DNA of 55,518 nucleotides, taken from positions 1 to 55,518 of the forward strand of contig NCSJ02000286.1 in assembly GCA_002812745.2 (NCBI GenBank). The letters run 5' to 3'. The notes beneath the pieces are model-generated. The model was not told where the DNA came from, did no database searches, and was given only the letters and a program-made list of their open reading frames with translations. Origin of the DNA: Scytalidium lignicola. Taxonomy: Eukaryota; Ascomycota; Leotiomycetes. The position numbers were made by a program, and so were the translations under genes. This document shows positions 3,179 to 48,510 of this stretch, piece after piece. Within the stretch, counting starts at the first letter, position 1, and every line of letters starts with the position of its first letter.

Positions 3179-3242
3179 TACCATATAACATGTTTCTACA
3201 CTTGTTTTTCGTGTTATTTACATACAAAGTGCTTGAATTAAT

Positions 3243-18370: not shown

Positions 18371-20357
18371 ATGGCTCCAGGGCAAACGCCTTCATTGGCT
18401 TATGAGAATCAGCTGCTCAGTGGTATGATTGATCGTCGTGTCATAGCATTGCGCAGATTGCCATATACTGACGAGCTGATACAGAGTTTCTTAATCGAAG
18501 GATACCAAGCTGGTGTCCTAGGAGGCGTACAAGGAACCAAGCCATACTTGGATGCTCTCAAGGTAAGTGTGATATCCAAAGATTTATAAAGTCAGTTCAA
18601 TATATTGAATGTTGATAGAACCCAACTGGCTCAGAAATAATACCGATGATTGCATCGTCATATACTCTTGCTGCAGCGGTGATGTCGTTGATCGTTGTCG
18701 TTATTGGCATGCCCCTCGGTCGCCAAAAAAGTATTCTCATTGGAAGTATCTTGATTATTTTTGGAGGCGTCATCCAGGCTACCTCATATTCGGTCCCTCA
18801 GATTATCGTTGCTCGAGTGATTTGCGTAAGTTTCTTCCATTAACCAACATATCTTTTAGTATGCTGATATAATATATAGGGTTTTGGTATAGGGGTAGGT
18901 TTCGGTGTCGTGCACTGCAAATTGAAGACTAACTGTCATGTTGTAGCTCATAACTTGCAACGTACCAATGTACATGGTGAGCGAACATAGTTACTCCAGT
19001 AACCTAAACGTTTATTTACTTTTCTCAGTCAGAAATGAGTGTACATGCTAAAGAGCGAGGCCCGGAGGTCGCAATAAACTGTGCTGGTCTTCTTGCAGGT
19101 GTTGCTTTGTCCTACTGGGTCGACTTTGGATTTACTCAAATGAGTAACCAGATTTCATGGGTAAGCAACAACCAAGAAAACTGAAATAGGTTTACTAATT
19201 TGGACCTCCTAGAGATTTCCAATAGCCCTGCAATCTGCTTTCGCTACAATATCTGCTTTAGGAATATTTTTCTGTCCAGACACTCCTAGATGGTACTATG
19301 CAAGAGGTCGCCTTGAGGAAGGTGATCGGACGCTGGCAAGACTTCATGGAGTTTATGACCAACAGCGTCAAGAATACGACGATCACTTTGCTATGCAAGC
19401 AATGAAAAGAGAAATATTTCAGAGCATCCAGATTGAATCAGAACAGGAAAATCATCTAAGCTGGATTAGCCTCATTTGGGACAACACACCACTTCGAGTC
19501 GGTCGTCGCATTCGAATATCATTCATGATTCTCTCCATCCAACAAATGATGGGCATAGATATCTTAGTTTACTACATGACTCTCATCTTTTCCCAGGTCG
19601 GCCTGTCAACTTTTTTATCTTCACTGCTGGCAGCTATATCCTTAACGATCCAATTTGGTGGAGCATTAACTTGTGTGCCAACGATCGAGAGACTCGGCCG
19701 TCGCACTATAATGATGTGGACTGCTGTGGGTCAAACAATTTGTATGCTTGTATTTGTCACTATGAACGGACTTCCACATAAATCACTTGCGACTCAATGG
19801 ACAGCAGTCAGCATAATGTTCTTCTATCTCTTCATGTATGGGTGGGGCTGGGTTGCTTGTCCTTGGTTAGTCTATCCAGAGCATCTCGGTATAACTTGAT
19901 ACTAATGACATAACAGGCTATACGGACCAGAAGTAAGTTCAATATCACATACATAACTGAATTATAGTAAACTCTAACTCTTACAGATTGCTCCACTTAA
20001 ATATCGACATGTTGGAGCCGCTGCTGGTCTATTTGGGGAATGGCTCTTCACATTTATCACTGTTTTTGCAGGTGGAATTGGTATTACTAATGTTGGATGG
20101 AAAATTTGGATCTGGCCACTTATATTCAACGCAATTGGGGTGGCATTCGTATACTTCATGTGTCCGGAGGTAAGTACTAATCACTTTTGCGGCTGTGTAA
20201 TTGCTAACTGAAAAAGACGACTGGCAAGACTCTCGAAGAGATTGACACGCTTTTTGCAAAAGAGCCAGCTCTTGTTGCCAGAATTCCTCATGAGGATGGG
20301 GATGAAAAGATTATTACAACTTCTCATCAAGAAATTGAGACGGCTCCATCTGCCTAG
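18371..20357 (+). CDS. MFS sugar-porter-type transporter (cluster gene 1)
   Basis: Nine exons can be joined: 18371-18562, 18619-18825, 18880-18894, 18947-18976, 19029-19160, 19213-19865, 19917-19932, 19987-20169 and 20217-20357. Together they give 522 residues (sum divisible by three). Sugar-porter signatures are present: GYQAGVLGGVQ, GMPLGRQKS, RFPIALQ, PDTPRWYYARG, ERLGRRT, CPWLYGPEIAPLKYRH and PETTGKTLEEID. These proteins carry sugars, polyols or quinate across the plasma membrane by proton symport. The stretch before GYQAG is unusually polar for TM1, so the first exon may be mis-modelled or the helix weakened. It lies at the left edge of the cluster and probably imports its substrate. It is not closely reminiscent of QutD. 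Confidence 0.85.
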
Positions 20358-20967
20358 CGCATCTTAGTTTCTTTGTATAGACCACTTTGAAGCACACTAG
20401 GCAGAACAGAAATTAACCCAGGAAAGAATATCTTTAAATATTTGCTCGCAAGTCGGGTTTAAAAATAAAACAACCTTTGTGTTTGAATTTAATAAACTCC
20501 TTATCATTCTCTAGAATACTTGCAACCCCGTGTATTCATATCTATAGATTTGAATTTTACAATCCTAAATCCTAGCAAATTACGGTATGTCACGATATAT
20601 TCTTTTGCTAAGCTGAAGCTTCTACATATACATTGTTATCCCATTTCCTGTAACTTAAGATAAAGAGAATACTTTGTTTACAATTACTATTTTTTTTTAT
20701 TGTAGTCAGAAAGGCTTATATGTTTAATTAATTTTTTTATCAGATCAGAAGCAGCTCCACTATTCACTTTAAGCTCAATCATCCTTTGTGGTTCTTTGTG
20801 GGATGAGTTTGAATCTATTGTATGTTAATATAACTGTAATATAATCGCTGGTCCTTTCAACCTCAGTCGTATTTGCGTTCAAATTCATAATTTGCTCGTG
20901 CATTCTTTCTCAGTCTTGATATCGTCTTGTTTTAGCCGAATAACCGCCTAGAAAATCTTAGTCCACA
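20358..20967. other. Convergent 3' intergenic region
   Basis: AT-rich sequence between the convergent transporter and thioesterase genes. It includes polyadenylation-like AATAAA runs near 20465-20490. No ORF or repeat is supported. Confidence 0.4.
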
Positions 20968-21999
20968 TCAAAATATAAATCTATCAAGTTCATATACCTC
21001 TTGTATGCAACTTGCAATTAACACTCCATCCTTTGTCCAGATCTTCTGATATGCAACTCCTCGCTCATCTCCAGCCCAATGACTTCGTAATTCTGTCAAC
21101 ATCCACTCATCCGCTCTGACTTTCAGTGGGTTGTGGAAGAACATGGTATGGTTGAGAGTTACCATCATGCCTATCTCCAGATCCTCATTTTCTAAACGTT
21201 CTTCTCGGTCTAATATGGGAATTTCGCCGTGGATTTTTGAATGCATCCACAGGTCATCTCCAGGTAAAATTAACTCTGTGAATGGAGGCCTAGTGAAACG
21301 CCATATATTATGAACACGAGGTATTACCCCAATTAAATAGCTGTCCGACATGTATGCTAGTGCAGCGAGGTGAATTTGGTGACTTCCGGATGCTGAAATC
21401 TTACCACGCGCCTTGACCCATTGATGCGTAAACTTCTCATGGGGGTTAGGCGATGTAATGTTAACTATTCCGATTCTCCTATTGATATATGGCCACTCTC
21501 CAGTTTCATCTCCCTGAGTCAGCCCGTCATCTATATCATCTTTTGGTATGGGAACATTAGGAGGTATTGGCTCTGCATGTTCTATAAGCTTCTTGCGATC
21601 ACTTTCCAATCGGACAAAACTTATTGTCGAAGTGAATATAAGTTTTTCTTTTTGCATTGCCTTAACATTTCTAGTAGCAAAGCTCTTTCCTTCACGCAAA
21701 CACTCAACATGGTATATGATAGGAATATTAGAATTCCCTGCCAGGAGAAAAAAACAATTTATGGAGTGTATTGCAAAGTTGTGGGGAACAGTTTGGTTTG
21801 CTGCAAGGAGACATTGTGCAATAGTGACACCGCCAAAAATTCCTCGGGCACCTGGAGGATGCCAAGCTGGCCGTGTGTTTGTGAACAATTTGGGGTAGAC
21901 CTGATTTAACGACGTAAGCTCTAGCAGGTTCTCAATCAGGGACTTAGAAGGATCAAGAGGAGGAGGTTTGAACAATGTTTGACTATCATCCATCGGCAT
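20968..21999 (-). CDS. TesB/ACOT8-type acyl-CoA thioesterase (cluster gene 2)
   Basis: A single exon of 343 residues starts at ATG 21999 (MPMDDSQTLFKPPPLDPSK). It has the double hot-dog layout of the thioesterase II family. The first half contains PPGARGIFGGVTIAQ and HSINCFFLLAG, the second LAALAYMSDSYLIG and MMVTLNHTMFFHNPLKVRADEWML. This last block matches the F-H-x-x-F-x-A-D-x-W-x-L-type signature of TesB/ACOT8. These enzymes hydrolyse acyl-CoA to acid and CoA, often in peroxisomes. The C-terminus (DRFIF) is not a PTS1. It is divergently transcribed from the Zn2Cys6 gene at 22403, with a shared promoter holding ATTCCGA motifs. In this cluster it could release a free aromatic acid from its CoA ester (inference). 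Confidence 0.85.
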   Translation of the reverse strand: MPMDDSQTLFKPPPLDPSKSLIENLLELTSLNQVYPKLFTNTRPAWHPPGARGIFGGVTIAQCLLAANQTVPHNFAIHSINCFFLLAGNSNIPIIYHVECLREGKSFATRNVKAMQKEKLIFTSTISFVRLESDRKKLIEHAEPIPPNVPIPKDDIDDGLTQGDETGEWPYINRRIGIVNITSPNPHEKFTHQWVKARGKISASGSHQIHLAALAYMSDSYLIGVIPRVHNIWRFTRPPFTELILPGDDLWMHSKIHGEIPILDREERLENEDLEIGMMVTLNHTMFFHNPLKVRADEWMLTELRSHWAGDERGVAYQKIWTKDGVLIASCIQEVYELDRFIF

Positions 22000-22402
22000 T
22001 AGAGAATTAGAAAACTCAAATCTTCATGTAGTTATGTGAAGTAAAGGCAGTTTCTCCAGGATTATTTTGGGCGTACACAGTAAATGATATTCCATAAAAT
22101 TGTCCATTTTCGGATTCGGAATAGATGTTAAGACATTGTAGAGGTATTACTTAATCTAACATGTAAAAATTACACTAAGCATGCGTGATCGTCTCTAAGT
22201 GTTCCTAGTGGATACTATTAAGTGGTTGGTTCGAGGTGCTTCTTATTCCGAAGGTGGAGGTGATGTGCAAAGAATGCACCGGCATATTAATATTATCACC
22301 GGTTCCACTTTAACCTTCATTATACTCAACGCAGTTGAATTCGTTGTCACAGGTTAGCATATATCTCTCAATTATGATCTGGTTACTCAGAGTACTCCAA
22401 TA
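22000..22402. promoter_or_regulatory. Divergent promoter, thioesterase / regulator
   Basis: The stretch separates two divergent start codons. It holds CGGATTCGGAAT at 22111-22122 and ATTCCGAA at 22245-22252. CGG triplets in such contexts are the usual half-sites of Zn2Cys6 proteins. The same ATTCCGA core recurs in other promoters of the cluster. Binding is inferred. Confidence 0.45.
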
Positions 22403-24898
22403 ATGGATGAAATTTGCAAACCACATGAGGAAGCCATTGCGGTCTCCTCTCTTTCGCCTATACCCAGCATCAAAAAAAGAGACAAATACACCCGAAATGC
22501 GTGGTAACGAAAGATAGAATTGAAGATATGAGTTGGATATTGCTTTTCTAACACTCTCTAGTCATGAGTGTCGCTCTCGTAAAGTTAAGGTCTCGTATCC
22601 TTTAAGAATTCACACCTTAAGACGTCAATATTGACGATAAATAGTGTACAGGTGGCACTCCTTGTCGGAGCTGTCTACAACATAGTATGACATGTTCCTA
22701 TCCCAGTCGAGACAAGTCAAGAAAGACTAAGAATAACATCGGAATTAGAAAAAGGTATGTGAAGCTTAATTATCAATGTACATTATTTGGCTGTTTGGCC
22801 GTTTGGATTGATCGGTCATATTTAGATCCCCCTTCAAACGCGGGAATCCTGACGGCCAAGATGGAAGTTTTCTAAAGCGCCTAGAAGAACTTGAGCAGAG
22901 GATTGAGCGAGTTGATAAAGGGTGAGTCTATGATATGCGTAAATGATAAATCGTCAAGACCTACACATTACTATGCTGATACATTCAATTCAAAATAGAT
23001 CCAATGACAGCTTGGTAATGGAATCTATGAAGCCGTCTGAATCAGTCGATATCGTGTTTTGCAATGATGTCAATGACATTAACGAGAACATAGTAAGCAT
23101 GTACGAGGATCGGCCTCATGAAATGGAAATATTCGGAGTTACTACCGATAATCATGCTGCTGCGTCGCTGAGTTCCCATATATGCGCCCTAAAATATATT
23201 CTGCTGCCGAGTGACAACTTCACTACTATTTCTCCCATTCATTCTAATAGGGGTGCAAATTTTGATACAGATAAGAAAGATAAAAAGCAGTATCTCCGCA
23301 ACCTACCTTCAGTACAATTGTTGCGTCACCTCTTCCGTTGCTACTTCGAGCAGTTGAGCTATTTCTTCCCTTGTGTTGATGAAGAAGAATTCATGTCGCG
23401 CTTCTCCCAGATCGAGGAAGAGCAAAATCTCCAAGATGACCACATATCAATATACATAAATCCCTCAGATAGTTCATTCATCATGCTGATGTGTGGGGTG
23501 CTCGCCGTTGCAACTTATCTAGACCCGAAAAGCCATGACGAGAAATCATCTGCTTCTCCAGGATGGCGTTTTCTATCGATGGCTGAAACTATTCTCAGAC
23601 GACGAAGCTCATTTATGACAGATTTAGACTTGAATCTAGTTCGCTATCACACTGTCAAAGCTATGTATATGACCCACATAGAGAAACTGAGTGGTGCTTA
23701 CAACGCTATTGCCGATGCGGTTCAACTTGCGTTCAGAATAGGGTTAAACAACCAATCACTGTGGAGATATTGCTCTGATAATGATAAATATGCTCGTCAG
23801 CTACTGTGGTGGACCATATATTATATGGATCGGCGTGTGGCACAGAAGTGCTGGAGGCCGTACTTCATTCGTGAGAATGAGGTAGGTGTAGATGAGCCTA
23901 GAATGATGGACGCAGAGAGGTATAACATATCAGATACAATGGAGAGATCAAATGATCGTAAAGTCCTACTCAGTCTTCGATACGTTCAGGCTCAAGTGAA
24001 TTGGGCACGCTTGTGGGCACGTATTTGGGATACCTTCTTTGCTGTTAGAGCAAATAATGGTGGTAATAATACCGAAGAAATTGAAATAATGGACACACGA
24101 ATCCTTCATATAAAGAGGCAACTAGATCAAAGCCTGTGCTGGGATACATCACAATTACAAGACTATATAAATCTAGGAGAAACCGATGGAGAGACTAGGT
24201 CCAGACTTGTCACATTCACAGTACGTATTTACCTACATATACTGGATCCAACCAGCTTTTAATAATGAGCAGCGCTTATATTAACACCAACATAGAGGAT
24301 AAACCTTCTTCGACTATTAATTCGCCAGAATCCACTACATGCTTCAGCATCAGCGGCACATAGTGCCAAAATCTGCATAGATCTTGCTAGTGAGAATATA
24401 GACGCAATTGTAGCCTATATGAACACGAGACTCAACCCCATCCCATTTGGTCTTAATGCTGTAGAATGTGTGGTGGAGAGTATGTGCCATTTAGCACCTC
24501 ATCTAACATCCACAAAGAGCGAAGACTTGCATTGTGTCTCCTCATTTTTCCGCGCCATCGAGTTTCTCGAACGATTATCTAGCTCTCTTGGAGCAGCACA
24601 GCGGGCATTGACAGTGTTGGATGAGATTATAAAGAATGGAAGACAAACTGTTCTTGAGTCCAAGCTATCTGCTGGGCAAAGTGTTCCATCCTTACTTGTA
24701 CCATCTCAGATGACTAGTCTCGAAATGCTTGACAATAGTTTGATCAATCCTGACCAATCTGGAATAAACTTTCATGGCCTCAATTTAGAGTCACTATCCA
24801 ATGTATTTCCACCTTTAAATTGGGGATTAGCTTCGGATCCTGTTATGGATGGAAATGATGGAAATTCAATAAATTTCAACTATGATCAAACTTATTAG
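22403..24898 (+). CDS. Zn2Cys6 transcription factor 1 (cluster regulator)
   Basis: Six exons (22403-22503, 22562-22589, 22645-22754, 22826-22921, 22999-24220, 24296-24898) join to 719 residues with the frame kept. The zinc cluster is split over three exons and reads ACHECRSRKVKCTGGTPCRSC plus six residues to the last Cys (spacing C2C6C5C2C6C). It is followed by a basic linker and a short coiled coil (LKRLEELEQRIERVDK) for dimerisation. The middle shows the fungal_trans region: LRHLFRCYFEQLSYFFPCVD, LWWTIYYMDRR. A gene finder that starts at 22943 would miss the DNA-binding domain. Placed between the thioesterase and CoA ligase genes, it is a likely pathway-specific activator (inference). It does not resemble the QutA/QA-1F zinc cluster. 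Confidence 0.9.
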
Positions 24899-25259: not shown

Positions 25260-27604
25260 ATGGCTCCTATATTTTCCAAATTGAAGGTCCACATGAGACC
25301 GGATCGATCCATCACACAATTCATGCAAGAAAATGTATCTAATACAGATCCCTTGAAAATAATTTGTGAGGATACTGTGTCTGGGAAAAATGCTACATAC
25401 GGTAGCCTCCGAGAAGACGCATTCCGTGCTGCTCATACCCTCCGTCATCAATATGGTCTATGCGAAGGTGATACTGTATCTATTATCTCGAGAAGTTGTG
25501 TAAGTACAATATTAATATCTTGTGAACAATAATTACTAGGTAGCAACAGTTCCTAAGGAGGAGTGAAACAGAATAACTAGGAAACCTCATGATATTCTTT
25601 ACTAAAAATTTAGCAGGTCGACTACATCATTGCTGCTCATTCAGTGTGGGCAGCAGGTGGCATCGTTAGGTTCGGTTCTATAAGAGCATCCTTCTAATCT
25701 GATTATTACTGATCAATTTAAAGCACCATAAACCACTCTTCTACCGCGCAGGAAATTGCTCACGCAATTCAAATTGTCAAACCAAGGTTCTTTATTGTAG
25801 ATGCAACCGTTAATCACAAACTCAATGAAGCTACAAAGCTAGAGGGGACGATCTCATATGCAGATTGTAGAGTCTTCACTCTTCTTTCCAGAATTGATGG
25901 TCATTCATTGGTAGTAGAACTTCAAATATCTAAACTAAGTATTCATGGGTACAATGAAATTAACATAATTGCTAGTTCCCTAATGATTTTGTTGGAAATC
26001 CATCCAGGATAGGATATGAGACTTATGTACTGGATGGGAAAGATGCAAGAACAGTTTGTGCTGCGATTGTGCTCTCGAGTGGAACAACTGGTTCACCAAA
26101 GGCTGTCATGCTCTCCCACCATAACTTAGTTGCAATTTGCGAGCAGCTACGGTTACATAATAATGATAATTGGAGAGGTTCTATGAGGGAAATATTCTTT
26201 CCTGTATGTCCTTACCCTTTCTTAAGTTTACACCAGAACTTGATAACAATGATACATTAATCTGATCTTTAATTAGCCCTGTAGGTCGTCATATTATCCT
26301 TATACATTATTACAAGAGTTGGGCTAATTCATTCTTAGTATCTCACATTTATGGAGTATATGTCTGTGCATTAATGGGCCCTTGGCTGGGCTGCTACATC
26401 TGCTTGGTTCCTTCTTTCGATCTTGAAAACTATTGCATGGTACGAATTTGTATAATATTCTTTCAATAATCCAGAACATACTAATTCTAAAATGCGCAAA
26501 AGTTGATGCAAGAGAAGAGTGCAACACTTGCTAGACTAGTACCAACAGTTGCATTGGCACTTGCAGAGTCTAAGGTAGTAGAAAAATATAAATACTCAGA
26601 TCTGGAGTATTTTTCTTGTGCAGCAGCACCATTGAAAGTAAGTAAACTAATAGAATTACTAAATCCGACAAGAGAAGTTAATAAGGACAGCCATATGTAG
26701 CTGCAAAATTAAGAGACAAGTTTCCAGGAGTCAGCATCTGTCAAAGTATGTATTGAGTTATCTCTAACTTAGTATAAAATATGCACGTTACTAACAAGCT
26801 CTAACCATATAGCATATGGCTGTACTGAACTTTCCTCTTGTGTTTCTCAAAGTGGAGTTCAAGACAAGGGTTCTCCCCTAGTAGCTACAGGAACTCTGCT
26901 TGCAAATATCGGCATTCGTTTTGTCAATGAAAAACTAGAAGATCTGCCTCCTCACCAGCCAGGCGAGATCTGCGTTAATTCACCTACTATTATGATGTAG
27001 GACTCGGCATGATTCTTTTCTATAGCTGAATGGTCACTCTAACGCAAATATCTTCATTATAGGGGTTATAAAGACAACGAGATTGCAACCCATGAAGCTA
27101 TGCTAGAGCCTGGATGGTACAGGACTGGTGATATAGGATATCTTGACTCCAAGGGTTATTTAATCGTAATTGATCGCATCAAGGACATCATCAAATATAA
27201 AGGGTAAGTCCTCTTATTAGCCAGATTAGTCTCAAATCTAGGACTAAATTCAACCCAATCTGGGCTAATGGGAAACAACATGCAGCTTTCAAGTTAGCCC
27301 AACGGAAATCGAAGAAGTCATAGGATTACACCCCCTTGTTGAAGACGCTGCCGTCACATCTACATGGAACGACTCAGAAGCAACCGAGGTCCCACAAGCT
27401 TTCATTGTACCAGTTTTAGGGACTCCGATCTCTGATTACAAACAACTTGGACAAGAGATCCAAGACTTGGTTGCTCTAAAACTGGCGGGATATAAAAGAT
27501 TGCGTGGTGGCGTGAAATTCGTGGATAAACTGCCGAAAAACCCGACAGGTAAAATTTTAAGAAGACAGCTACGAGATGCAGCGAGGTTGAAAGCAAAAAT
27601 TTAA
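25260..27604 (+). CDS. Acyl-CoA / 4-coumarate-CoA ligase-like enzyme (cluster gene 4)
   Basis: The multi-exon gene starts at ATG 25260 ([19 protein letters not shown]) and ends at TAA 27602. It carries the ANL-superfamily motifs in order: [15 protein letters not shown] (P-loop, about 26070-26115), AYGCTELS (after an intron near 26815), [15 protein letters not shown] with [11 protein letters not shown] (about 27118-27204), [11 protein letters not shown] and [15 protein letters not shown] near the C-terminus with the catalytic Lys. Such enzymes adenylate a carboxylic acid and transfer it to CoA. Fungal 4CL-like members act on hydroxycinnamic, benzoic or fatty acids. At least eight short introns interrupt it (for example 25501-25618 and about 27205-27285). 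The exact borders in 25500-26040 are uncertain. The tail AKI is at best a weak PTS1. Substrate unproven. Confidence 0.85.
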
Positions 27605-29382: not shown

Positions 29383-29457
29383 TAAAAAGTAATCTACTTC
29401 AACTGATATTGGTGAAAATTCCATAGTTCAACTGATTGATATGTTCATCAGTGCCCG

Positions 29458-32432: not shown

Positions 32433-33401
32433 ATGGACACTCTTAAGCATTCCTATAACTATGGAACATCCCCTCTTTCACCGGACTCATTGTCAAAAGA
32501 ACTCCGCATTTATCTATTCGGAAAGCCAATTGCCAAGTCACTCTCCCCTCTCCTACAACCCATTTTTTTCAAAGCTGCCTCAGCATCATGGACATTTCAT
32601 TTAGCAGAAACCACGCGCTCCACGGAATTCTCACATAAACTAGAAGATCCAGATTATATTGGAGCTTCAATTACGATGCCAAATAAAGTAGCCTTCATGC
32701 CCTTCCTAGATGACATCACCGAAGAAGCACGAACAATCGGAGCTGTTAATACTTGCTTTGTTCGACTTGATGGCCAAGGCATTCGAAGACATATTGGAAC
32801 AAACACGGACTGCATAGGAATCCGAGATACACTTCATCAAAAAGTTCCTAAAATTGTCCAAACCAAATTAAAACAGCCTGCTCTAGTTATCGGCGGTGGT
32901 GGAGCTGCAAGGAGTGCTATCTATGCATTGTGGAGGTGGTTTGAACCCTCGGAAATCTATATAGTCAACAGGTTGAAATCTGAGGTTGACGCTATTATTA
33001 CTTCATTCGAAACCACAATACCTGGAATCAACCTTCAGCACGTTGCTACTGTACAAAGTGCGTATTCTCTGCCAACACCTGTTATTAGTATAGGAACAAT
33101 TCCAGACTATCCCCCTAAAGGACATGGAGAGATTCTCTGCTGGCAGATTTGTGAAATATTTATGCAGGAGAGAAAAGGTGTGTTGTTGGATATGTGCTAT
33201 CTACCAAGCCCGATAACAAGATTATCCAGAATGGCAGAGAAGAATGGGTGGCTAGTGATATACGGGAGTGAGGTGCTAGTTCGTATATGTGCTGCTCAAC
33301 AGGTACTCTGGCTAGAAAAGGAACCCAGTATAGAAGCAGTGAATCAAGCCCAGCTTGTAGTGAAGGCTAGTTTAAGGGATGTTACTCAGTCTAAACTGTA
33401 A
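32433..33401 (+). CDS. Quinate/shikimate 5-dehydrogenase
   Basis: A single exon of 322 residues. It has the AroE/QutB layout. The substrate-binding N-domain has IYLFGKPIAKSLSPLL and SITMPNKVAFMPFLDDI, with the catalytic Lys in PNK. GAVNTCF and HIGTNTDCIGIRD follow, with the partner Asp. The NAD(P) domain carries VIGGGGAARSAIYAL. The C-terminus has VLLDMCYLPSPITRL. Quinate dehydrogenase oxidises quinate or shikimate to 3-dehydroquinate or 3-dehydroshikimate, the entry to protocatechuate. A stand-alone protein, not part of a pentafunctional AROM, points to catabolism. Fungal QutB/QA-3 homologues are of this size. Quinate versus shikimate preference cannot be decided by eye. Confidence 0.9.
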   Translation: MDTLKHSYNYGTSPLSPDSLSKELRIYLFGKPIAKSLSPLLQPIFFKAASASWTFHLAETTRSTEFSHKLEDPDYIGASITMPNKVAFMPFLDDITEEARTIGAVNTCFVRLDGQGIRRHIGTNTDCIGIRDTLHQKVPKIVQTKLKQPALVIGGGGAARSAIYALWRWFEPSEIYIVNRLKSEVDAIITSFETTIPGINLQHVATVQSAYSLPTPVISIGTIPDYPPKGHGEILCWQICEIFMQERKGVLLDMCYLPSPITRLSRMAEKNGWLVIYGSEVLVRICAAQQVLWLEKEPSIEAVNQAQLVVKASLRDVTQSKL

Positions 33402-36787: not shown

Positions 36788-39687
36788 TCAAGCCACGCCC
36801 CCAAAGCCCTGCCCAAAAAATTCTTGGAACATTATCGTATAATCCCCTCCAAATGTCCCTTCTTCCTCCATCATTTGTGGAGTAAAGAAGGGATCGAAAC
36901 ACAAAAGCGTGTCATCTCCCTGGAACGGTAACGATTCCATCTCGTTACTAGAAGAATCAAAAGTTGCGGTAGCTGTCGTCAGTATATCATCATTCTGAAC
37001 ATCTTGTGTTCGAAGATTATGGACATAGTCTCTAATTGTAGCTGATTGGGCACGTACAATCATCATAAGATGCTGTCCCAAGAGAGCGGCAATTCCAAAG
37101 CGATGGAGAGGGGTTGATCCCGCTTTTTCAAGTTGTAGTGCTAGTTGAGAAAGTAAAGTGAGAAGTTCTATATCTGACCCAGGTTGCCTTCCATGTGCAG
37201 ATGGGAAGAGCTAGCTTATATTTCAGCTTTCAGGTCAAATATAAAGTAACTGACTGGGGTTTTGAACACACCTTGAGAGCTAGAACTGCTGCATAAGATA
37301 ACATGGCCCAACTATACGGGAAGTAATTAGATATTGAATTTCTATCAGGATGACAACATTAACTTACGTAGGAGCTAGCATGCAATACAACGGCTCTCCA
37401 ATGTCTTGCAGATCTCGAACAGCAACTTCACAGCATTCAACTGCAGCCTCGAAGCAATCCTTTTTGATAGCTTGAGCATCAACCTTGAATACATTTGAAT
37501 CATGTAAAGCAAATGAAAGTGCCCAAAGTCGCCCATGCATATAAACATAACGTAAAAAGACGCTTGACAAGAACTCAGTAGGATCAGAAAGGTTTGCCGT
37601 CGTTGGCAACCAGGTCTGACACCAGGATGAGAGGCTCTTATTAAAGAATTTCCGTACCCAGTATGGATCAGACTGCTGTTGAAGAGCCTCCGTTCTCAAG
37701 TCTTCGTGCATGTGAGCTAACTGTCGACGGAAGAGAATGAAAGCACATGTATGCTTATCAGTGTCAATGGCTAGGTCATGTCTCCACCAGGATTCGATAT
37801 GCAGAGTGAGCTCATTCTCGGGGAACGGATTCATTCGACCTCTAGCTGCGCTGCTGGCTCGCTCCCATAAGAAGATCCTTAACCATGTCCGCTCTCGATT
37901 ACGAGCTAATCGCTGTCGAAATTCGGCAGGTCCCATATGGGTTCTCGGGCTGTTTGACATATTCGCTGGATATTGTTGAGGAGAACCCGTTGGTGTTGGT
38001 TCTCTTAATGTTTCGGCACCGGTTCGACCTGATAAATCTCTGCATCGTTGATCAAGGCCTAGATCTGCTGCAACTCCAAAGGCGTACATGGTATATAGCC
38101 AAGTGCGCTCTTCATACATTGATGATGCAGGAGTTGCCGAAAGCAGAGAAATGTAATATCCTTGGATGATATCGACGGACTTGTAGCCACAGGTATGCAC
38201 ATGCTTCGAAAGCTTTTCTCCATGTAATCGAAGTCTCTTAGCAAGAGTACTGCAATCGGGATTAAACTGGGCCGTGATGGCCAACATCCAGGTGAAAAGA
38301 AGAGCTGAACGAGTGCGAACAAAGGTTGGTGTGTGCAATTTGGGGTCTAGAATTCCATTAATGGGATGCAGTCGATGGAAGTAGATAGGGAAAAGGTCTT
38401 CAGCTTCCTCCATAGTTACGATGCCAAGTTCTACGGGGTCAACATCTGGACCGGTGTCACGTCTCCACTGTGGTTCTGGGGGTTTGAAATAATCCGAACA
38501 GCGATAGGACCGAGGTTCTGGATCGAGGAGAGCATCCAATCCTTTTTCCAGACGTTCGAAGCCTATCTTTAGGGGTAATTGTACACATCCAGGCAGAGAT
38601 CGAAGGTCATGTTTCAGTCTGGACGACTCAGTAGTGATGGGACTCTCATATGGCCTAGATGGAGACTCTGAGCTCGATAAAGGAGAGGGCTGAGTAGAGC
38701 TAGCATAATGGCTCTCTCGTGCCCGAGCAGCGCCGGCTGCATCAGCTAGCAAGCCAAAGGGGTTGCTAACTGTGCTGGGCTCCGTCTCTGAAGTGAGTGT
38801 TTCTTGCATGGGCAACTGCTGAACTGCTTCTGCTGCAGCATCTGCCAGCATTCTGAATGATGAATCCTCGACTACGGTATGCTCTCCTCCCATGGCTGGT
38901 CGTTCTCCTGGCATCTGCTGCACTGTTCCTGCGGCATCTGCCAACAGTCCAAACGGATGACTGACCCTTCCAGATCCCATGTCCGAGGGTGTTTGAGGCG
39001 CCGAATCTGGTTGAAGGCAAGTTGGCAGAGTAGTTGAACACGGTGTACGGGTCGTTTGCAGAGATAGCGCTGGAGCTGGAGGAGTAAATCCGGCACCTCC
39101 TGACTCAGGAACTGCAGGTTGCTCCAAATCTTGGACAAATCCAGGATCCAGATCTCCCGGCTCCGTGTGATTAGTGCCCTGCTTGTCCGAATCCAGATTG
39201 GGAACCAGGTCGCTTTCAAAAATAAACTCGTTGGGGTTGCTCTGATCGGAGTCACTCTGCAGTAACGAAACAACGTCCATGATATTATTAGTGGCTGCCG
39301 ATGGCGGAGGTTGAGATTTCTTCTGCGCCTTCTTAAGCTCCGACTCGATTTGACGCCACGCCTTCTCAATGCCTTTGTATCTACCCACAGAGCCTCGTTT
39401 TCGTCCCATGGGACGAGGTTTGGGAATTCTGCATGCCTTGCCGCTGCGAGAACAGCGTTCACAGGGCTCCAACACGTCGGCACCCGGCAGCATGGGGGAT
39501 TCGCTACGAATGCATCTCATCTACGCAAATGAGCATCAAAGAGCGGGATGGTTCACACAGCAAGTTCATAATAAAAATGGCCTACCTTGAGTCTGCGACA
39601 GGCTTCGCATGCTGCGACAGTTGACGAGCGGCGAGTTGATGTTGAGGTCCATTGCTCGGGCTCGGCTGCTTCTGCACTGGCCGCCAT
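36788..39687 (-). CDS. Zn2Cys6 transcription factor 2
   Basis: Four exons on the minus strand (39687-39586, 39520-37368, 37311-37272, 37210-36788) give 905 residues, sum divisible by three. The zinc cluster spans the first intron: ACEACRRLK joins to MRCIRSESPML, then CERCSRSGKACRI. The loop between Cys3 and Cys4 is long (16 residues). It is followed by GRKRGSVGRYKGIEKAWRQI, a basic and coiled linker. A low-complexity region contains three PFGLLADAAG-type repeats (about residues 190-270). The fungal_trans middle homology region follows (LFPIYFHRLHPINGILDPK, RTWLYTMYAFGVAADLGLD). A conventional ORF call from 39520 would lose the first three Cys. It probably regulates the right half of the cluster; its target sites are unknown. 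Confidence 0.9.
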
Positions 39688-40155: not shown

Positions 40156-41787
40156 TCATTGCTTGGCATCCTCGAGCTCGAGCACTGCAACATGCTCCAC
40201 ATTGCTTTCCTTCGCGTCTCCCTTGTCTCTGTGTGTGATATCTCCCACTTGCCGCACAATCTTCACTGCCTCGTCATACGACANTTTTCGACCCTCCCTC
40301 GTACTTGGTTTCGAAAATTCGGTCCACCTGTTCAAGAGACAGCCCCGCAGTCTCGATGTAAAAGAGCCAGATCAGCGGCAAGAATGAAAAGTTGAATGTG
40401 CAGAAGATCAGATAGAACTTCCACCCGAGGTTGGTAATGCCAGGCGGAGTGATGAGGACCACAACGTAGACAAACGCCCATTGCACTATCATCGCTATGG
40501 CAGCGCCGGTGTTGCGCATTTTATGCGAGTTGATTTCGGAAGGATAGATGAATGGAATGTTCAGATACGAGGTTCCCTGGATACAACTTCGTTAGTTATC
40601 CTGCGTAAAAGAATGAATAAAATAAAAATAACCTCATGAAACTCATGACTACATCGTGTACTCACCTGGAAGACATAAAATATGAAGATCCAAGATACAG
40701 CGAAAGCCCCCATGGGCTTGGTCCCATAACTAAGACCTAATGCCGCCATGCCAAAGCACACACTCTGCCCAAAGGCGCCAATCATCAAGAGAATCTTGCG
40801 GCCAACTCGGTCAACAAGAAGTGTTCCAACAAAGGCCCAGACACCAAAGAGTATGAAGTCTACCACCGACAACACCAAAGCAAAACGCGCACTATAGCCA
40901 AAGGAGTTGACAAGGACAACTGGGAGATAGTAGGCAATGACATTTGTACCACCAACTTGTTGCATGAACGACGGACCGGCACCAAGCAAGATGCGTCGAA
41001 AGGTCTGCTGTCTGCCACCACTGAAGACTTCGCGAAGGCCAGGTTTTTGTTCCATCCTCTCCCATTCGACCGCATCCACGATAAGAGCCAAGCTATCATT
41101 GACTTCTTGTGAATCCTGCGGTTTGGCAAACAAGCGCGCGATAACCTGTCGGGCCTCGTCCGTTCGATCCTTTAAAACCAGCCAGCGCGGCGACTCAGGC
41201 ATGAAACTGACGAGGCCAATGGTCACAAATGCAAAGAAGCACTGAAATGCTAGAGGAAAGCGCCAGATCACGTCTTTGTCCTGGTTGGCGTATGTGAAAC
41301 CGAGATTGATCAAACTGGCGATGACCAGGCCGGCAATAAGCAGGATGAGCTGGAGGGATATGAGCCGTCCACGATGTTGCGGCTTCGAAGTTTCACTCTG
41401 CCATAGTGGAATAGCTGTAGTATTAATTCCCGTCCCCACGCCAGTGATGATGCGCGCGACGATGATATGAGGCAAGGAGAAGGCGCAGGATTGGAGAGCG
41501 CCGCCAATGATAATGGTGGTACACGCAAGAGCGATAGAGCGTCGTCGACCAAGCTTGTCACCCGTAAATACCGAGAGCAGGGCTCCCAGCATGCACCCCA
41601 GATCGTAGCTGGAGACAATCTGACCCTGGGTGGTCGAGTTGGGATTGTTGAAGGTCTTGAGGAAGGCTGAGATGGAAAGCAGGCCCCCGAAGACCCCCTG
41701 GTCGTAGCCAAACAGCAGGAATCCAGCACCCGAGGTCAGGGTAATGCACGCTGTCAGCGCCCTTCCCTCCAGACTGCGGAGAAACAT
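40156..41787 (-). CDS. MFS sugar-porter-type transporter 2
   Basis: ATG 41787 (MFLRSLEGRALTACITLTS) to TGA 40156, one intron at 40577-40665. Signatures: FLLFGYDQGVFGGLL, GDKLGRRRSI, RGRLISLQ, WRFPLAFQCFF, PESPRWLVLKDRTDEA, VDRVGRKIL and FIYPSEINSHKMRNTGAA, ending ETAGLSLEQVDRIFE, with 12 probable membrane helices. It is a full-length sugar-porter family member of about 510 residues. An N at 40284 beside a T run causes an apparent frame change. The reading after it (YDEAVKIVRQVGD to LELEDAKQ, stop) is clearly the genuine tail, so the break is a sequencing artefact. Probably the second importer of the cluster. Confidence 0.88.
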
Positions 41788-42496
41788 CTTTTCAGTTAGA
41801 TTTTCGAGTAAGGGGACCACTGCTGACCTAAAGCAGGGCCTGGGGTTGAGAGATGTGATCTTTATACAGCAAAGGTAGGCAGAGAGAATCTAAAAGACAG
41901 AGTTCCCAGACCGGACAGTAAAAGAATTGACCGGGGATAGAATCTTCACCACCCCCAGACCCCAGAAAGACCCACGATCTAGATTGAGAAAGTCTATCTC
42001 AAGATAGACTAGCTAAGCTGTATCCCAGATAGTTAATCAACTACTGAGCGGCAAGTCTGCCAGTGCCCCTCAAAAATCTCCCATCGAAATAGAACCATGC
42101 ATTCCAATCTATTGAGTTCAAGATTAGGACCGGCCGGCTTACACATGTATTAATTCTTGTATGGCTACATCCTATACTCGAGATTCCGTATATATAATAC
42201 GTCAATGCAACGGAATAGGAGGAGAGCTTTGGTAACTATAACCACATTTGACATCATGCGCCACCAAATATTATCACGCAAACCGCATATTATTGCCACA
42301 AATGAAAGCTCATGATTGTGATGGCATTATGTGTATTCACCTTGTCAAGAAGTACAAGTGATAATCCTCTATTGAAGAGAAATCCCGAGACCATTTAGAT
42401 CATGCATAAAAATGATGTTCATTTCAAGGTTGAGACTAGATACACACACACACACACACACACACACAAGGGGGGTAACACATAAGACAAGAAACC
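41788..42496. other. Intergenic region with microsatellite
   Basis: Promoter of MFS 2 and 3' end of the flavoprotein gene. No ORF. Holds a (CA)n tract at 42441-42469. Confidence 0.45.
42441..42469 (+). repeat. (CA)n microsatellite
   Basis: About 14 uninterrupted CA units followed by AGGGGGG, just 3' of the flavoprotein gene. Confidence 0.95.
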
Positions 42497-44371
42497 TCAC
42501 AACCGTGATCCAATAAGCTGGTTCTCATCATAGTGGACGTCTTTGGGATTTGCGGCGGGTAACGCTGGCCGTGACAGATTCAGCTCGGTCGCAATAGCAC
42601 GAGAAGCCCAGAGTCCCGTCACGAATGCCAGCGCAAGACCGCCCGCATAGCCCAAGTTGCTGAAGCCGCCCGCATCGACACCGGCGACCAGAAGCCCTGG
42701 AATGGGCGTTTTGTCAGTAGTCAACGCGTGGCCCTTGGAGTCAATTGCAATGCCACCGTAGGTGAAAGTGATACTAGACGTACACCAGTTAGCCAAACCC
42801 GGCGCACAGTCTAATTATTAGGATTACTAGGGGAACGGCTTCCAGAGAGCAACTTACGAAGGCTGGACCTCCATAACATAGAACGGTCCTTCGCCGTCAA
42901 TAAGGGGGACGGGAACCGGACCGGACCGTCCCACAGGAGCATCGAGCGATGTAGAGAGATCCCCGAGGCGTACAGCTTGGTCATATCGCTGCAGTGTCCG
43001 TTGAGCTTCAATCCCGTCAGCTCCCCATCGAATTAGGATGTCTACTAGTCCGTCCAGCGTAGGTGCACTGGCAACGTTGCATCCGTGGTCACGCGCCTTC
43101 TGGAGACGGTCGATGTCCCCAGCGTTGGGGAACAATGCTGATACACAGTGCTGGGCGCGTGTTTTCTCACTATCAAGCACATAAGAGAGTAAAATTAGAA
43201 CCCCTGTTTCACTGCAGAAGATTATCTAGATCTGTAGAATGGGGTGTGAAAACCTACTTGAACAGCAGAAACCCGCGCCTCTTCTCTTGCTTAGCTAGAT
43301 GCTGGTTCACGATCTCATCTCCGGTTGTCTCATCTGCGAACCTCTTACCCGCTTCATTGATCAGTATGCAATACTTGCTCTCTGTGTTTAAACGTCCATT
43401 AGTTTCAGTCGCTTGCTAAATACATGTACTTTGTTTTCCAATTGATCATGGGGGCTTACGATATTGTGCCAGTGGCAGATAATCCTTAGGATCAACATCT
43501 TCTGCTCGAAGTGGTGCAGCCAGCAGGTGCCCATAGTATGTATTCATCCCACGGCTTGTCCCGGCGCCCACGCAAGTGGCCAGAGTGAGGCCATCGCCAA
43601 CAGAACCACGGTTTGAGCGTACAAATATATTATCACCTCCCTGACCTAAATATCGAGCTGTGAGGCTCGGCGAACCTTGGAATCCTCCTGTTGCCAGCAC
43701 AACAATCTTAGCCTTGACTTCCAGGTACTGAGATTGACGTCCCTCTGCTGAATTACGACGTATGATGGCACCTACAACACGGGATCCAGGAACTCCAGGT
43801 CTCTCTTGCAGTAGTTTCACGACTGAGGTGTTCAGGAATACCTCTGATCCCGTCTTGCTTCCTTTGATCTTCTTCAGATGCAACTCGTGGAGAGATGGAA
43901 TTTTGATGGGATACCCAATCCCTAAAAGAATCATGATCAGTAACTAGAAATCTCAACCATAATATTATCTCAGGAAAGCAGAACTTTACCAATGGTCATG
44001 ATGGGAGAAAATCTATTAAATGTCGGTATTCCACTCTGCCGCATCCATTCCACAGCTGGGAGATAGTCATCCAACCAGGCGCGCTGTAACGCTGGATCAC
44101 CATCTGGAATCCAGCCTCTTATGCTCTCATAACTCTTAGGAGCCCAACTGAAGAAAACGACTTCTTTAGAATTTTTCTTTTCATTTTCTAAGGCACATGC
44201 TAAAATTTGAAAGACTTACAACATGCCAGCCGAGTAATTTGAGGATCCGCCGACCTGGTACTGCTTCTCAACAACCAGCACTTTTGCCCCTGCGGCTGCT
44301 GCAAACGATGCTGTCGACATCCCCGACATTCCACCGCCACATACTAACACATCAACCGTAATAGCCTCCAT
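42497..44371 (-). CDS. FAD-binding fumarate-reductase-type flavoprotein
   Basis: Start ATG 44371 (MEAITVDVLVCGGGMSGMS), stop 42497, five or six exons. The dinucleotide-binding motif VLVCGGGMSGMSTASFA and VVEKQYQVGGSSNYSAGM are followed, after an intron at about 44147-44219, by WAPKSYESIRGWIPDG. Later come IVVLATGGFQGS, GDGLTLATCVGAG, and the C-terminal TYGGIAIDSKGHALT and GLLVAGVDAGGFSNLGYAGG typical of FAD_binding_2 proteins (fumarate reductase, ketosteroid dehydrogenase, tricarballylate dehydrogenase-like). These add or remove hydrogen across C-C bonds next to carbonyl or carboxyl groups. On a hydroaromatic acid such chemistry could desaturate or reduce the ring (inference). No PTS1 (GSRL is at best a weak SRL-like tail). 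Small exons around 43180-43440 and 42800 are approximate. Confidence 0.85.
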
Positions 44372-45884
44372 TATTGACAAAGCGTCTATCTTCTTCAAAG
44401 GTGGTCTCTTACAAAAAGAAAGATTACAAGTATCACATCTATTACCTTTGCTTCCACGAAATATATCCGTAAATACAAAAAAAAATGTATCAGATAATGC
44501 AGATAGATAAACAAATTCTTGTAGCTATAAAACCTCTAGCTTCATCCCACTAACAGTGGTTCCATGTTGGGCTTATATCGGCATCCAGATTTACATCCCG
44601 GCTTAGATCCAAAAACTCCTTGAATCTTCAGAGCTGAGACTTCTGGCTAAAGTTATAACCTGTTCCGGTTCCGGAAGCATCGCAACATTACTGCCTATCA
44701 CTATTACGGTGATTGCTATGTTTTCAGTCTACAATAGCTTTGAATTAAATTGAACATATTAGAATCTAGTTTACTTACGAGCGTCATATTCTCTAAACCA
44801 AAGTCCAGAAGCTTCACATCACTATTAAAGCAATTCATCCTCGTTCTTAAGATTGTAAATATTTGCAACTAACACTGCAGAACCTTCAATCTCTACACTC
44901 ATGAAAGAGATAATCTGTACGTCATCATCGTCAGATTTGGCCCGCTACCGGTGTCAGGCTGTGGGTTCTTGAAGCTTGAAGGAATGGAGTGCAGAAAGTC
45001 TTCCGGAAGATAGATTTAATGGCCGGATTAAATGTGTTCTGGCCAATCAGATTTAATCAATGGTTACCTCGGTCGGTATTTGGAGCTTGGGCCTTGGGAG
45101 CTCTCAGCACGATGTTCTGAAGGAGTTGAGCTTTTCTGAATGTATGTTAAAATAATTGAAAATTGTAGTAATTTAGTTTCTGAAATTTAATATAAATGCT
45201 CTAGTTAGGGTTTTAGATGTTATCCATTGTTTGATTCTAAGTGCCACATGGCTTGGCATATATATTCACAATTTGGTACCCAAATTTAAAAGCTAATCAA
45301 ACCTTTATCTTCACCAGGCACAATTGATTAATTAGCCTCTCCTTTTACATTAATAGCTAATTATTTCTGGAGTGGTAACTTGAAAATAGTTATAATATTT
45401 TATAGTAAATGTTGGCTATTTCGTAGAGATGCGGTCCCAGATTGGGAAAAAGAAGTGAAAGTGCGTTCCAGTGAGCATAATGCCTATCAAGCGACATAGT
45501 TTTTGATCTGCTGTGATCATTGTTGTCTCTGAAGTTGTTGACGATTTTAGAGCTTTACAAGGAAAGCATTATAAGGAATAAAAATGGCCTACGGCTTGCG
45601 ATGTGCACAGTTGGGGGGGTTTTCTAGGAATGATGCAATATGTTCAATGAAAATGTAGCAATCATGATACGAATAGTGAATTATAGCAAAATTTTTAGTC
45701 CAAGTTCAAGTTCAGTTTTATAACCACCATCATCAAATAAAGCTCGGGTGAAGAGATGAATTCACCGATTATTTCATAGTATTTCGAGAACAAGTATCAG
45801 CATCGGACCTCCACTCTTATCGATCACGGTCATTACGTACCCTCGACTGATTCCTAAAGATGTGACAAACCCAATTCCTCGGTC
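44372..45884. other. Long AT-rich intergenic region
   Basis: Includes the flavoprotein promoter, with ATCCCGGCTTAGATCC (about 44597) and GTTCCGGTTCCGGAAGC (about 44664-44680) as candidate Zn2Cys6 sites. The remainder (45100-45880) holds nothing I can support. Confidence 0.4.
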
Positions 45885-47049
45885 TTAGAGCTTGTGAGCG
45901 CAGTTCAGCCCACACTTGGAGACAATTTCACGCCACGATGTCATGCCTCTGCTGGCCCATTCATCCGGTACCCTAAATTGATATGAAGTTAGCAAAGAAA
46001 CAGAAACGGACTGTTGGCAATCTAGTAGATACTAACGAATAGCGCTTATCCCATAAATCCGTATTGAAGACTTCCATAGAAACCCATCCTGTGTATCCCA
46101 TCTCAAAAATAGTCTTCGCAACCTCGAGCGCAGGGAGAGTGCCTCCATATCGAGGTGGTTCGCAGGGAAACATCCTGCAGTTTCGGGATTGGGTCATAAA
46201 TGGTGGCTGGTTAATATCTTGAATAGGGTAGCCTTTCTGCTCAGGATCAGCAACACTGGCGTCGCTCAGTTGCAGATATCCAATATCGCTGGCCTTGACT
46301 GTGCGTTTCATCTCGTCCATGCTCTTTCTCAACCTATGAAGTCCATCGGTCCGAACTGGACTAATCGCATTGAACGGATCCCCAGCCTCCTTCGCCGCAA
46401 TGTGAAAGGTGTCCAGGCAGTACCGAACATTTGGGAGACCAGTCAGGGTAATAATATCTCGAGTCTGTTGCCAGGTATCGATGTGTATTCCCCATGCTGT
46501 GGCTTCATATGCTACCACCAAGCCATATTTCTGGGCGAGGCGTCCGAGACGTCTTAAATTATCTGCGATTTTATTGTAATCCGAGGTGATTTTGGCTTCC
46601 GGCATAGGATAGATGCACGATGGAATCTGGTATCGTGCTGTTAGAATCTAAGTTGATTGGATGCTTCATATATATGCTTCTCGGTATACCTGAAAAATTG
46701 AAACTCGCATGAGCATACATAGCTGCATCCATAGCTCTGCCTCTTCAAGTCGCGCCTCAATTTCTAACGGATCAATGAGTCCATCATACGCCCCAAAGGG
46801 ATTCAAGGCAATAATCTCCAGTGAAAGAGTTGTTGCATTAAGAAAAACATCCGTAGCCGCAGCACGCAGTCTATTTGCCCGACTTGTTTCTCGAACAAAA
46901 GATGCGGCGTGTGCTTCGAGACACTCAATCGCAACCTCTACACCATCAAAGCCATGAGCTTTTGCAGCTTGAAGCTTGCGAATTATATTATGTCCAGCTG
47001 CCGACTTCCCAAGAGAATTTGTCGCAATTGCGATTTTACAGCGAGCCAT
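45885..47049 (-). CDS. 3-dehydroshikimate dehydratase-like TIM-barrel enzyme 2
   Basis: Three exons (47049-46690, 46626-46037, 45972-45885) give 345 residues, frame kept. Start MARCKIAIATNSLGKSAAGH. Blocks KAHGFDGVEVAIECLEAHA, LVVAYEATAWGIHIDTWQQ, NVRYCLDTFHIAAKEAGDP, DIGYLQLSDASV and YTGWVSMEVFNTDLWDKRY match the fungal dehydroshikimate dehydratase (QA-4/QutC) layout, with the metal-ligand Glu/Asp/His/Glu positions. This one is closer in appearance to classical fungal dehydratases than enzyme 1 at 29458-30624. It would convert 3-dehydroshikimate to protocatechuate. It shares a 276-bp promoter with the divergent SDR gene. The N at 47052 lies just outside the start. Confidence 0.87.
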
Positions 47050-47325
47050 AGNTTTTTTTTCCATACAGTGTTTCTTGTCTCTGAAGAATGGTACCACAAT
47101 AGGCCAGTTTTGATCGTGTTATGGAGTTGTATTCGGCCTTCAAATAAAAGAGCCGGGCATGCAACTGGAAGTGGAATTGCATTCAGCAATATCGTGCCGG
47201 GCGAATTCATAACCGGGTTAGCCAGCTTCAAAGAAGCTATCTTCCCCGCATCCAAGGTAAAATGCTCCAGTCCAGAATTTCCCTTCAGCTCTTGTAATAT
47301 TTAGAGCGGAACGCAGCTTTTCACA
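47050..47325. promoter_or_regulatory. Divergent promoter, dehydratase 2 / SDR
   Basis: Contains three GC-rich blocks in AT-rich sequence: GAGCCGGGCATGC (about 47150), GTGCCGGGCGAATTC (about 47191) and AACCGGGTTAGCC (about 47210). The repeated GCCGGGC suggests a regulator site different from the ATTCCGA core of the left half, perhaps for TF2. Confidence 0.4.
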
Positions 47326-48510
47326 ATGCCACTTCGAGCGAAGGTCAATTTTCCAGCGAGCATGTCTTCTCAGCCCCCGGGAGTTGTTATTATTACTGGT
47401 TTGTCATTCTCTCATTAAGTGAAACTTCTGTGGCTTGGAAGGAGTTTGAATTTTAAGATTAATTTTAGCTCATAGGTGGAGCGGATGGCTTTGGAGCTGC
47501 CATTGCCGACCGATTTAGCAAGGAGGGATACAAAGTTATTATAATTGACATTAATCGAGCAAAGGGGGAGGAAAAGGCCAAAACCGATCCAAATATTTAC
47601 TTCATGTCTGGTGATGTGACGCAACGTGAAACATGGGAGAAAGCTCTGTCCGTTGCGCAGACGGAATATGGAAGAATTGATGTCGTAGTCAATAATGCAG
47701 GTAATTAATCTATCGTGCCCTCTCCTCACTATGAATTGTCACTAACATTGCAAAACACTAGGCATTACCTATGACCCTTCTGTAATCTCAACTCAATTCT
47801 CGTGAACATACTGGGGCGCTAACACATATCCTAGCCGGTTCACACGAAGACTATTGATTTGTATGAAAAGGTTTTTAATTTGAATGTCAAGGTAAAAATG
47901 TCTTTACCAGTGCTTGTGCTGGCGCTTACGTCACACAAGCCCATATTTTTGAGTGCTCAAGTAATTGCTCCTGTAATGCTTGAACAAGGTAATGGGGCTT
48001 TCGTTAACATCACAAGGTATGCGTACCGAATTTTTCGAAGGATGTGATGAACTTACTAGAAATTTCTTTCAGCACCGGCTGTACTCGTCCTAGACCTGGA
48101 TTTGCTTTCTATAATGCGTCGAAAGGCGCCGTGAATGTGAGAATCATGTCTCCGAATTTGTGATCTAGACTGAAAAGACAATAGATAGCCTCAAAGACAA
48201 TGGCATTGGAATATGCACCAAAGATTCGATTTAATTGTATTTCTCCTGCTGTTGGAAATACATCTATGTCTGCACCACTGCTAAACTTCTCAGTTTATGA
48301 ACGCATCTAACAATTATCCATAGGCTCAAAAATAGTATTGGAGATGACTCACAATCTTCAGAGCGACTACGTAAACTAGAGGAAACTTTACCTATGAGGA
48401 GAATCACACAGCCCTCAGATATTGCTAACGCTGCATGGTACCTTGCTTCTGATCAAAGCTCATTTGTAACTGGAACTACGCTGGAGGTAGATGGTGGACG
48501 GGGGGTATAG
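47326..48510 (+). CDS. Short-chain dehydrogenase/reductase (SDR)
   Basis: ATG 47326 opens [19 protein letters not shown]. The first intron (47399-47475) splits the cofactor motif, which reads [19 protein letters not shown]. Then come NNAG (exon end 47700), VFVNIT-like FVNITSTG, the catalytic YNASKGA and [19 protein letters not shown]. The last exon ends [15 protein letters not shown], all in canonical classical-SDR order. About seven introns are present. Ser, Tyr and Lys of the active site are all there. It should oxidise or reduce an alcohol/ketone with NAD(P). At the right edge of the cluster and divergent from dehydratase 2, it may act on a ring hydroxyl (inference). Confidence 0.87.

Follow-up and report, generated by a model that had tools for sequence, protein, structure and literature searches.

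A fungal gene cluster that joins quinate-type enzymes with CoA-ester and flavin enzymes is probably co-regulated and partly peroxisomal

The breakdown of quinate in fungi is a textbook case of a gene cluster, in which a short, three-step route leads to protocatechuate. The classical qa/qut cluster comprises three enzymes together with a permease and an activator/repressor pair (PMC12610400). Here, we analyze a run of 14 genes (positions 18371-48510) in the ascomycete Scytalidium lignicola. The window, i.e., the whole stretch of DNA analyzed, is contig NCSJ02000286.1 at its full 55,518 nucleotides (nt) (contig C206 in our numbering of a 46.85-Mb, 664-contig assembly). Of the parts of the classical cluster, the run contains two of the three enzyme types (a member of the quinate/shikimate-dehydrogenase superfamily and the 3-dehydroshikimate dehydratase type), a sugar-type permease, and a Zn2Cys6 activator, and protocatechuate would be its goal as well. 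Unlike qa/qut, it has no dehydroquinase and no QutR-type repressor, and it adds a CoA ligase, a racemase, a thioesterase, an old-yellow-enzyme-type oxidoreductase (OYE), an FAD_binding_2 flavoprotein (FAD), a Gfo/Idh oxidoreductase, a short-chain dehydrogenase (SDR), a second regulator, and five C-terminal type 1 peroxisomal targeting signals (PTS1). Because two defining parts are absent, the cluster is not a member of the classical qa/qut system. Among the titles and abstract openings listed by a literature search, none described a cluster with the same gene set.

Individual parts of the set do have relatives elsewhere. Bacteria possess CoA-based toolkits for ring acids, such as the bai operon, the 4-oxocyclohexanecarboxylate desaturases, and the formation of cyclohexanecarboxyl-CoA. 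These combine a CoA ligase, a CoA_transf_3 protein, an OYE, an SDR, and a flavin desaturase on ring acids, as the present cluster would; the likeness is one of toolkit only, and the cluster differs in that its FAD protein is nearer to TcuA and its scores lie far below the family cut-offs. Its two dehydratase-like proteins, DSD1 and DSD2, belong to the same TIM-barrel family as the QuiC/QsuB-type dehydratases (PDB 5hmq), and its CoA_transf_3 protein, CAT, resembles alpha-methylacyl-CoA racemase (PDB 1x74), from which it differs in lying among ring-acid genes.

We consider it likely that the following 14 genes form one co-regulated, partly peroxisomal cluster. The protein families, C-terminal tripeptides, shared promoter words, rarity of the dehydratases in the genome, and absence of type II dehydroquinase from the assembly are read directly from the DNA.

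18371..20357, forward strand: MFS1, sugar-type MFS transporter (518 amino acids [aa], 8 introns; Pfam Sugar_tr 2.2e-75)
20885..21999, reverse strand: TES, acyl-CoA thioesterase II (TesB) type (354 aa; 4HBT_3C 1.9e-31 for the open reading frame [ORF]; PDB TesB 8e-31; terminal 50-nt intron; SKL end)
22403..24898, forward strand: REG1, Zn2Cys6 regulator (719 aa; Zn_clus 2.2e-8, Fungal_trans 7.9e-9)
25260..27604, forward strand: CAL, acyl-CoA ligase (549 aa; AMP-binding 9.9e-59; NCBIfam acyl-CoA ligases; AKI end; the 4-nt exon 26277-26280 is doubtful)
28225..29382, forward strand: CAT, alpha-methylacyl-CoA-racemase-type protein (385 aa; PDB 1x74 3.3e-76; CoA_transf_3 1.9e-59 for the ORF; AKL end)
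29458..30624, reverse strand: DSD1, 3-dehydroshikimate-dehydratase-like (388 aa; 5hmq 9e-24; NCBIfam QuiC 1.2e-29, below cut-off; no PTS1)
30980..32113, reverse strand: GFO, Gfo/Idh/MocA oxidoreductase (377 aa; Pfam GFO_IDH_MocA; NCBIfam inositol 2-dehydrogenase 4.9e-35, below cut-off; no PTS1)
32433..33401, forward strand: SDH, shikimate/quinate dehydrogenase superfamily (322 aa; Shikimate_dh_N 1.7e-18; AROM 4e-30; SKL end)
34088..35590, forward strand: OYE, NADH:flavin oxidoreductase (389 aa; Oxidored_FMN 5.4e-47; SKL end)
36788..39687, reverse strand: REG2, second Zn2Cys6 regulator (905 aa; Zn_clus 1.5e-4)
40156..41787, reverse strand: MFS2, second sugar-type transporter (Sugar_tr 1.5e-71 for the ORF; start codon likely at 41787; last exon uncertain)
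42497..44371, reverse strand: FAD, FAD_binding_2 flavoprotein (494 aa; FAD_binding_2 3e-34; NCBIfam TcuA 5.7e-39, below cut-off; flavocytochrome c3 1e-23; SRL end)
45885..47049, reverse strand: DSD2, second 3-dehydroshikimate-dehydratase-like protein (345 aa; AP_endonuc_2 4.7e-28; 5hmq 9.8e-13; last exon hand-picked; HKL end)
47326..48510, forward strand: SDR, short-chain dehydrogenase (277 aa in the present model; adh_short_C2 2.8e-49; an intron near 48016 possibly missed)

Spliced models came from a small predictor trained on the long ORFs of the window, and TES, REG1, CAL, DSD2, SDH, GFO, and the start of MFS2 were corrected by hand from the sequence. Pfam scans used the spliced products, except for TES, CAT, and MFS2, for which the long ORF was used. 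An earlier note, made from the letters of the window, had listed these 14 genes as lying almost without foreign genes between them, and the models bear this out: all 14 have an open-frame model and score above the cut-off of the Pfam family expected for them (REG2 barely, with 22.3 bits for Zn_clus against a cut-off of 21), and the run is not broken by any unrelated gene model. The widest gene-free gaps are 35590-36788 (~1.2 kb) and 44371-45885 (~1.5 kb). Introns and Zn2Cys6 factors mark the DNA as fungal.

The promoters share sequence words. In a scan for CGG pairs at spacings of 0-20 across 11 upstream regions (that of MFS2 taken upstream of a wrong start), one spacing class was present in 6 of the 11; the 200 shuffles peaked at 4, a value reached only once. 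The palindrome CCGG-N16-CCGG occurs in five exact copies in the window, where 0.16 were expected (0/100 shuffles). When spacings of 4-25 were compared in the window, every spacing other than N16 gave at most two. The assembly holds 175 exact copies, or one per 268 kb (430 for the pattern read backwards); at this rate 0.21 copies are expected in the window, and the probability of at least five is 2.7e-6 before correction for the ~60 classes of spacing and orientation tried. The five copies are as follows (no strand assigned).

18098..18121: upstream of MFS1
22279..22302: between TES and REG1
35235..35258: within an OYE exon
41911..41934: upstream of MFS2
45003..45026: 632 nt upstream of FAD

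Exact copies thus lie in both halves of the cluster (left, 18.4-35.6 kb; right, 36.8-48.5 kb), and four of the five are intergenic. Allowing one mismatch gave 14 sites against 4.3 expected, all within 17902-48098 and 10 of them non-exonic, with intergenic sites that include those at DSD1, GFO/SDH, OYE, and DSD2/SDR.

A second word, TTCSGAA, was the best of 64 words of its form, counted in a promoter set with the corrected MFS2 start. Eight of its 11 copies in the window fall in the promoters of TES/REG1, CAL, CAT, and OYE (null 0.67; maximum of 4 in 300 shuffles), three of them in ~90 nt upstream of CAL.

22115, 22246, 25047, 25072, 25128, 28002, 33557, 33616: TTCSGAA in four left-half promoters

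TTCSGAA is a candidate site for a second regulator. Two promoter words match two regulators in number; which regulator would pair with which word is a guess. Control through a Qa-1F/QutA-type site was rejected, since the consensus (GGRTAARYRYTTATCC) has no match in the window at up to two mismatches and seven at three mismatches against 8.2 by chance. A control locus (L022, described below) likewise had no such site, and this consensus may therefore not hold for S. lignicola.

Signs of a shared compartment are also present. A strict PTS1, defined as C-terminal [SAC][KRH][LM], ends 5 of the 14 models (TES SKL, CAT AKL, SDH SKL, OYE SKL, and FAD SRL), a near-PTS1 ends two more (CAL AKI and DSD2 HKL), and the other seven carry no signal. 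The signal of TES hinges on an added last intron: its ORF reads through a 50-nt terminal intron, and the spliced product ends in CTSKL. Under an amino-acid-composition null, a single strict ending has p=0.0026, and the probability of at least 5 in 14 is 2.4e-10, or 4.6e-8 leaving out TES. SDH and OYE are the telling cases, as judged from the ends of their paralogs: the QutB-like paralog of SDH ends in AKSH, and all four OYE paralogs examined lack a PTS1 (the family has 24 exon matches in the assembly). No alternative last exon yields a PTS1 for DSD1 or SDR; one for GFO with a weak SHI ending was not adopted. We infer that the cluster is largely peroxisome-addressed, import itself being a prediction.

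The dehydratases set this locus apart within the genome. AP_endonuc_2 has three matches in the assembly (DSD1, DSD2, and a deoxyribonuclease IV on contig C640), and the two in the window are the only dehydroshikimate-dehydratase-like genes found there. DSD1 and DSD2 are only 28% identical. Both retain the Glu, Asp, Gln, and Glu aligned with the metal-binding positions of QuiC, residues that we take to be its metal ligands, and they differ from QuiC elsewhere, with Asn for a His in DSD1 and Gly for an Arg in DSD2. Both score far under the QuiC equivalog cut-off, the model for which spans a longer fusion protein. By family, they are probably of the 3-dehydroshikimate dehydratase type.

SDH is one of four Shikimate_dh_N matches in the assembly, the others being on contig C110 (AROM-like) and, twice, on contig C255. 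It is 39.5% identical to the QutB-like paralog and 36% identical to the AROM domain. It keeps a Lys and an Asp, presumably catalytic, and has Ile in place of a Gln, presumably substrate-contacting, that is found in the two AROM chains compared and in the QutB-like protein.

Much of the remaining quinate route is missing or lies elsewhere. The earlier note had remarked that dehydroquinase and repressor are missing here, which holds for the window and, for the type II dehydroquinase (PF01220), for the whole assembly: the search returned 0 matches and was positive in 7 of 14 control genomes. A type II enzyme elsewhere in the assembly was therefore rejected, with the proviso that 664 contigs may be incomplete. 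No QutR-type repressor lies on C206, and DHquinase_I matches are confined to contigs C146, C110, and C255. Within 7.6 kb, C255 carries genes for a QutR-like protein (L021 7029-9426), a QutA-like Zn2Cys6 protein (L022 195-2705), and a QutB-like protein (L022 3651-4682), labels that we assign from domain order. With no type II dehydroquinase or dehydratase nearby, this trio looks like a reduced qut locus. Since its QutB candidate is the likelier quinate dehydrogenase, being closer to QutB than SDH is, DSD1 and DSD2 are split from that enzyme. The QutB-like gene also has a one-mismatch CCGG-N16-CCGG in its upstream region (L022 5068).

Contig C146 (L023 4823-6862) has a 680-aa open frame, separate from AROM, which matches type I dehydroquinase over the full length of that domain (192 bits) and whose C-terminal part is shikimate-dehydrogenase-like. 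Since motifs for the catalytic His and Lys seem to be in place, the protein may be an active, unlinked dehydroquinase.

Among the CoA-ester enzymes, CAT had been called a type III CoA-transferase in the earlier note, a label that fails against solved structures. Residues 4-321 of 385 align to racemase 1x74, alpha-methylacyl-CoA racemases are matched at E=3e-76, and the best CoA-transferase-type chains reach 6e-19. This difference rules out a plain type III CoA-transferase and argues for a racemase-type protein. A CAT paralog on contig C11 is 52% identical and ends in SKL. OYE matches BaiCD at 8e-36 (NCBIfam), with a score far below the family cut-off. Neighborhood scans of bacterial and archaeal genomes, which covered 3 of the 14 proteins, yielded 11 pattern stretches for FAD and 280 for DSD1 and DSD2, with no relative among them. 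On contig C84 (L030), an FAD_binding_2 paralog ending in AKL has an SDR-like stretch within ~1.5 kb, and this pair is perhaps another small set of like kind.

The route that we would draw from these parts, in which a hydroaromatic acid becomes a CoA ester and finally protocatechuate, is tentative and falls a little short of an even call; its compartment, substrate, and order of steps are proposals. MFS1 and MFS2 would take up a plant hydroaromatic carboxylic acid, a relative of shikimate whose ring is saturated or partly so, and CAL would form its CoA ester. CAT would epimerize the carbon beside the thioester, which requires a hydrogen-bearing ring carbon, so its substrate would not be quinate or shikimate themselves. 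FAD and OYE would adjust ring C=C bonds by desaturation or reduction, with ring enones or dienoyl esters as the substrates of OYE, and TES would release the free acid. SDH, GFO, and SDR would oxidize ring hydroxyls, DSD1/DSD2 would dehydrate a 3-dehydroshikimate-type ketone to protocatechuate, and the product would enter the ordinary beta-ketoadipate route. REG1 and REG2 would induce the gene set, at least one of them via CCGG-N16-CCGG. The earlier note had suggested a distinct pathway for a hydroaromatic acid or a quinate ester. Its distinctness from qut/qa stands, and a quinate ester is the less likely substrate because the 14 genes include no esterase and because, with the type II dehydroquinase missing, entry at a shikimate-type acid leaves fewer steps unfilled.

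Several observations weigh against this proposal. First, the promoter palindrome was picked out post hoc, is lacking in the CAL, CAT, and REG2 promoters, and has one of its five exact copies in coding sequence (an OYE exon) and four of its one-mismatch sites in exons. One-mismatch counts are similar at other spacings (N21, 15; N16, 14; N5, 13), and the evidence therefore rests on the exact copies. Second, the composition null flatters the peroxisome case, because fungal racemases, thioesterases, and ligases are often peroxisomal anyway and some paralogs carry PTS1-like ends (one of two CoA_transf_3 proteins examined, SKL; two of seven FAD_binding_2 proteins examined, AKL and PRL). No PTS2 motif was found in the first 60 residues of any of the 14 proteins, and DSD1, GFO, and SDR, all required by the scheme, show no PTS1, so the route would cross compartments; intermediates would exit the organelle, or DSD2 would perform the dehydration inside the peroxisome. 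Third, SDH may not act on shikimate, as the conserved Gln is lost, and FAD is closer to TcuA (5.7e-39) than to the ring desaturases ChcC1 (4e-21) and ChcC2 (1.3e-20). Fourth, the mere presence of CoA_transf_3, OYE, MFS, SDR, and Zn2Cys6 genes says little because these families are large: CoA_transf_3 has 26 exon matches in the assembly and OYE 24, and MFS, SDR, and Zn2Cys6 proteins are numerous in fungi generally. Lastly, the C146 protein, if active, could stand in for the absent type II enzyme, and that absence is then a weaker argument.

Other readings of the same genes were weighed. It is unlikely that the run is two adjoining sets, left and right, or partly a chance neighborhood. Each half has one MFS transporter, one regulator, and one dehydratase, TTCSGAA clustering is confined to left-half promoters, and G+C content at third codon positions (GC3) is lower in SDR and the nine genes of the left half (0.33-0.39) than in REG2, MFS2, FAD, and DSD2 (0.42-0.60; three genes elsewhere, 0.43-0.45), a step which suggests that parts of the cluster have different histories. 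However, exact CCGG-N16-CCGG copies and PTS1 ends occur in both halves, and the assembly's QuiC-like dehydratases, of which just two were found, fall one in each half.

Improbable, too, is a biosynthetic cluster that would turn the fungus's own 3-dehydroshikimate or shikimate into a cyclohexanoid acyl-CoA or an aromatic acid for a secreted compound. Bacterial formation of cyclohexanecarboxyl-CoA from shikimate follows a similar logic, the CoA ligase, OYE, SDR, FAD, and racemase suit ring reduction as well as oxidation, and sugar-type MFS proteins might in principle export. Yet the genes modeled on the 55.5-kb contig include no synthase-type core gene (one might lie beyond the contig end, 7 kb to the right), both transporters belong to Sugar_tr, and two dehydratases directed towards protocatechuate suit breakdown better. 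Quite improbable is a cluster with two arms that would handle chlorogenate or other hydroxycinnamoyl esters, with SDH and the dehydratases on the quinate/shikimate half and CAL, TES, and CAT processing the cinnamate half by way of CoA esters in the peroxisome. It would account for the PTS1-like ends of ligase and thioesterase, for the dehydratases beside a quinate-dehydrogenase-superfamily protein, and for two transporters. However, the 14 genes include no esterase, enoyl-CoA hydratase, or thiolase, the assembly gave no match to type II dehydroquinase, and the racemase, OYE, and FAD have no evident job in shortening the caffeate side chain.

The 14-gene run is flanked on its left by an F-box-like gene, an NmrA-like gene, and an AAA ATPase; on its right, a Pfam scan of two models gave no match, and the contig ends 7 kb past SDR. 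Positions 1-6000 of the window are strongly A+T-rich (23-35% G+C) and adjoin gene-bearing DNA at 40-44%, a stretch that resembles the leftovers of repeat-induced mutation in fungi.

In its furthest form, our proposal amounts to a second route by which fungi would turn hydroaromatic acids into protocatechuate, peroxisomal, based on CoA thioesters, and under a two-regulator switch of its own, in a fungus that lacks a type II dehydroquinase and whose SDH would act in the peroxisome on an unusual substrate (Gln to Ile); this full version is doubtful. If real, a co-regulated, peroxisome-addressed cluster that combines quinate-type chemistry with CoA esters and flavin enzymes would represent another way of dealing with the ring acids of plants. 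It would also offer racemases, desaturases, and dehydratases for the production of aromatics from hydroaromatic feedstocks.

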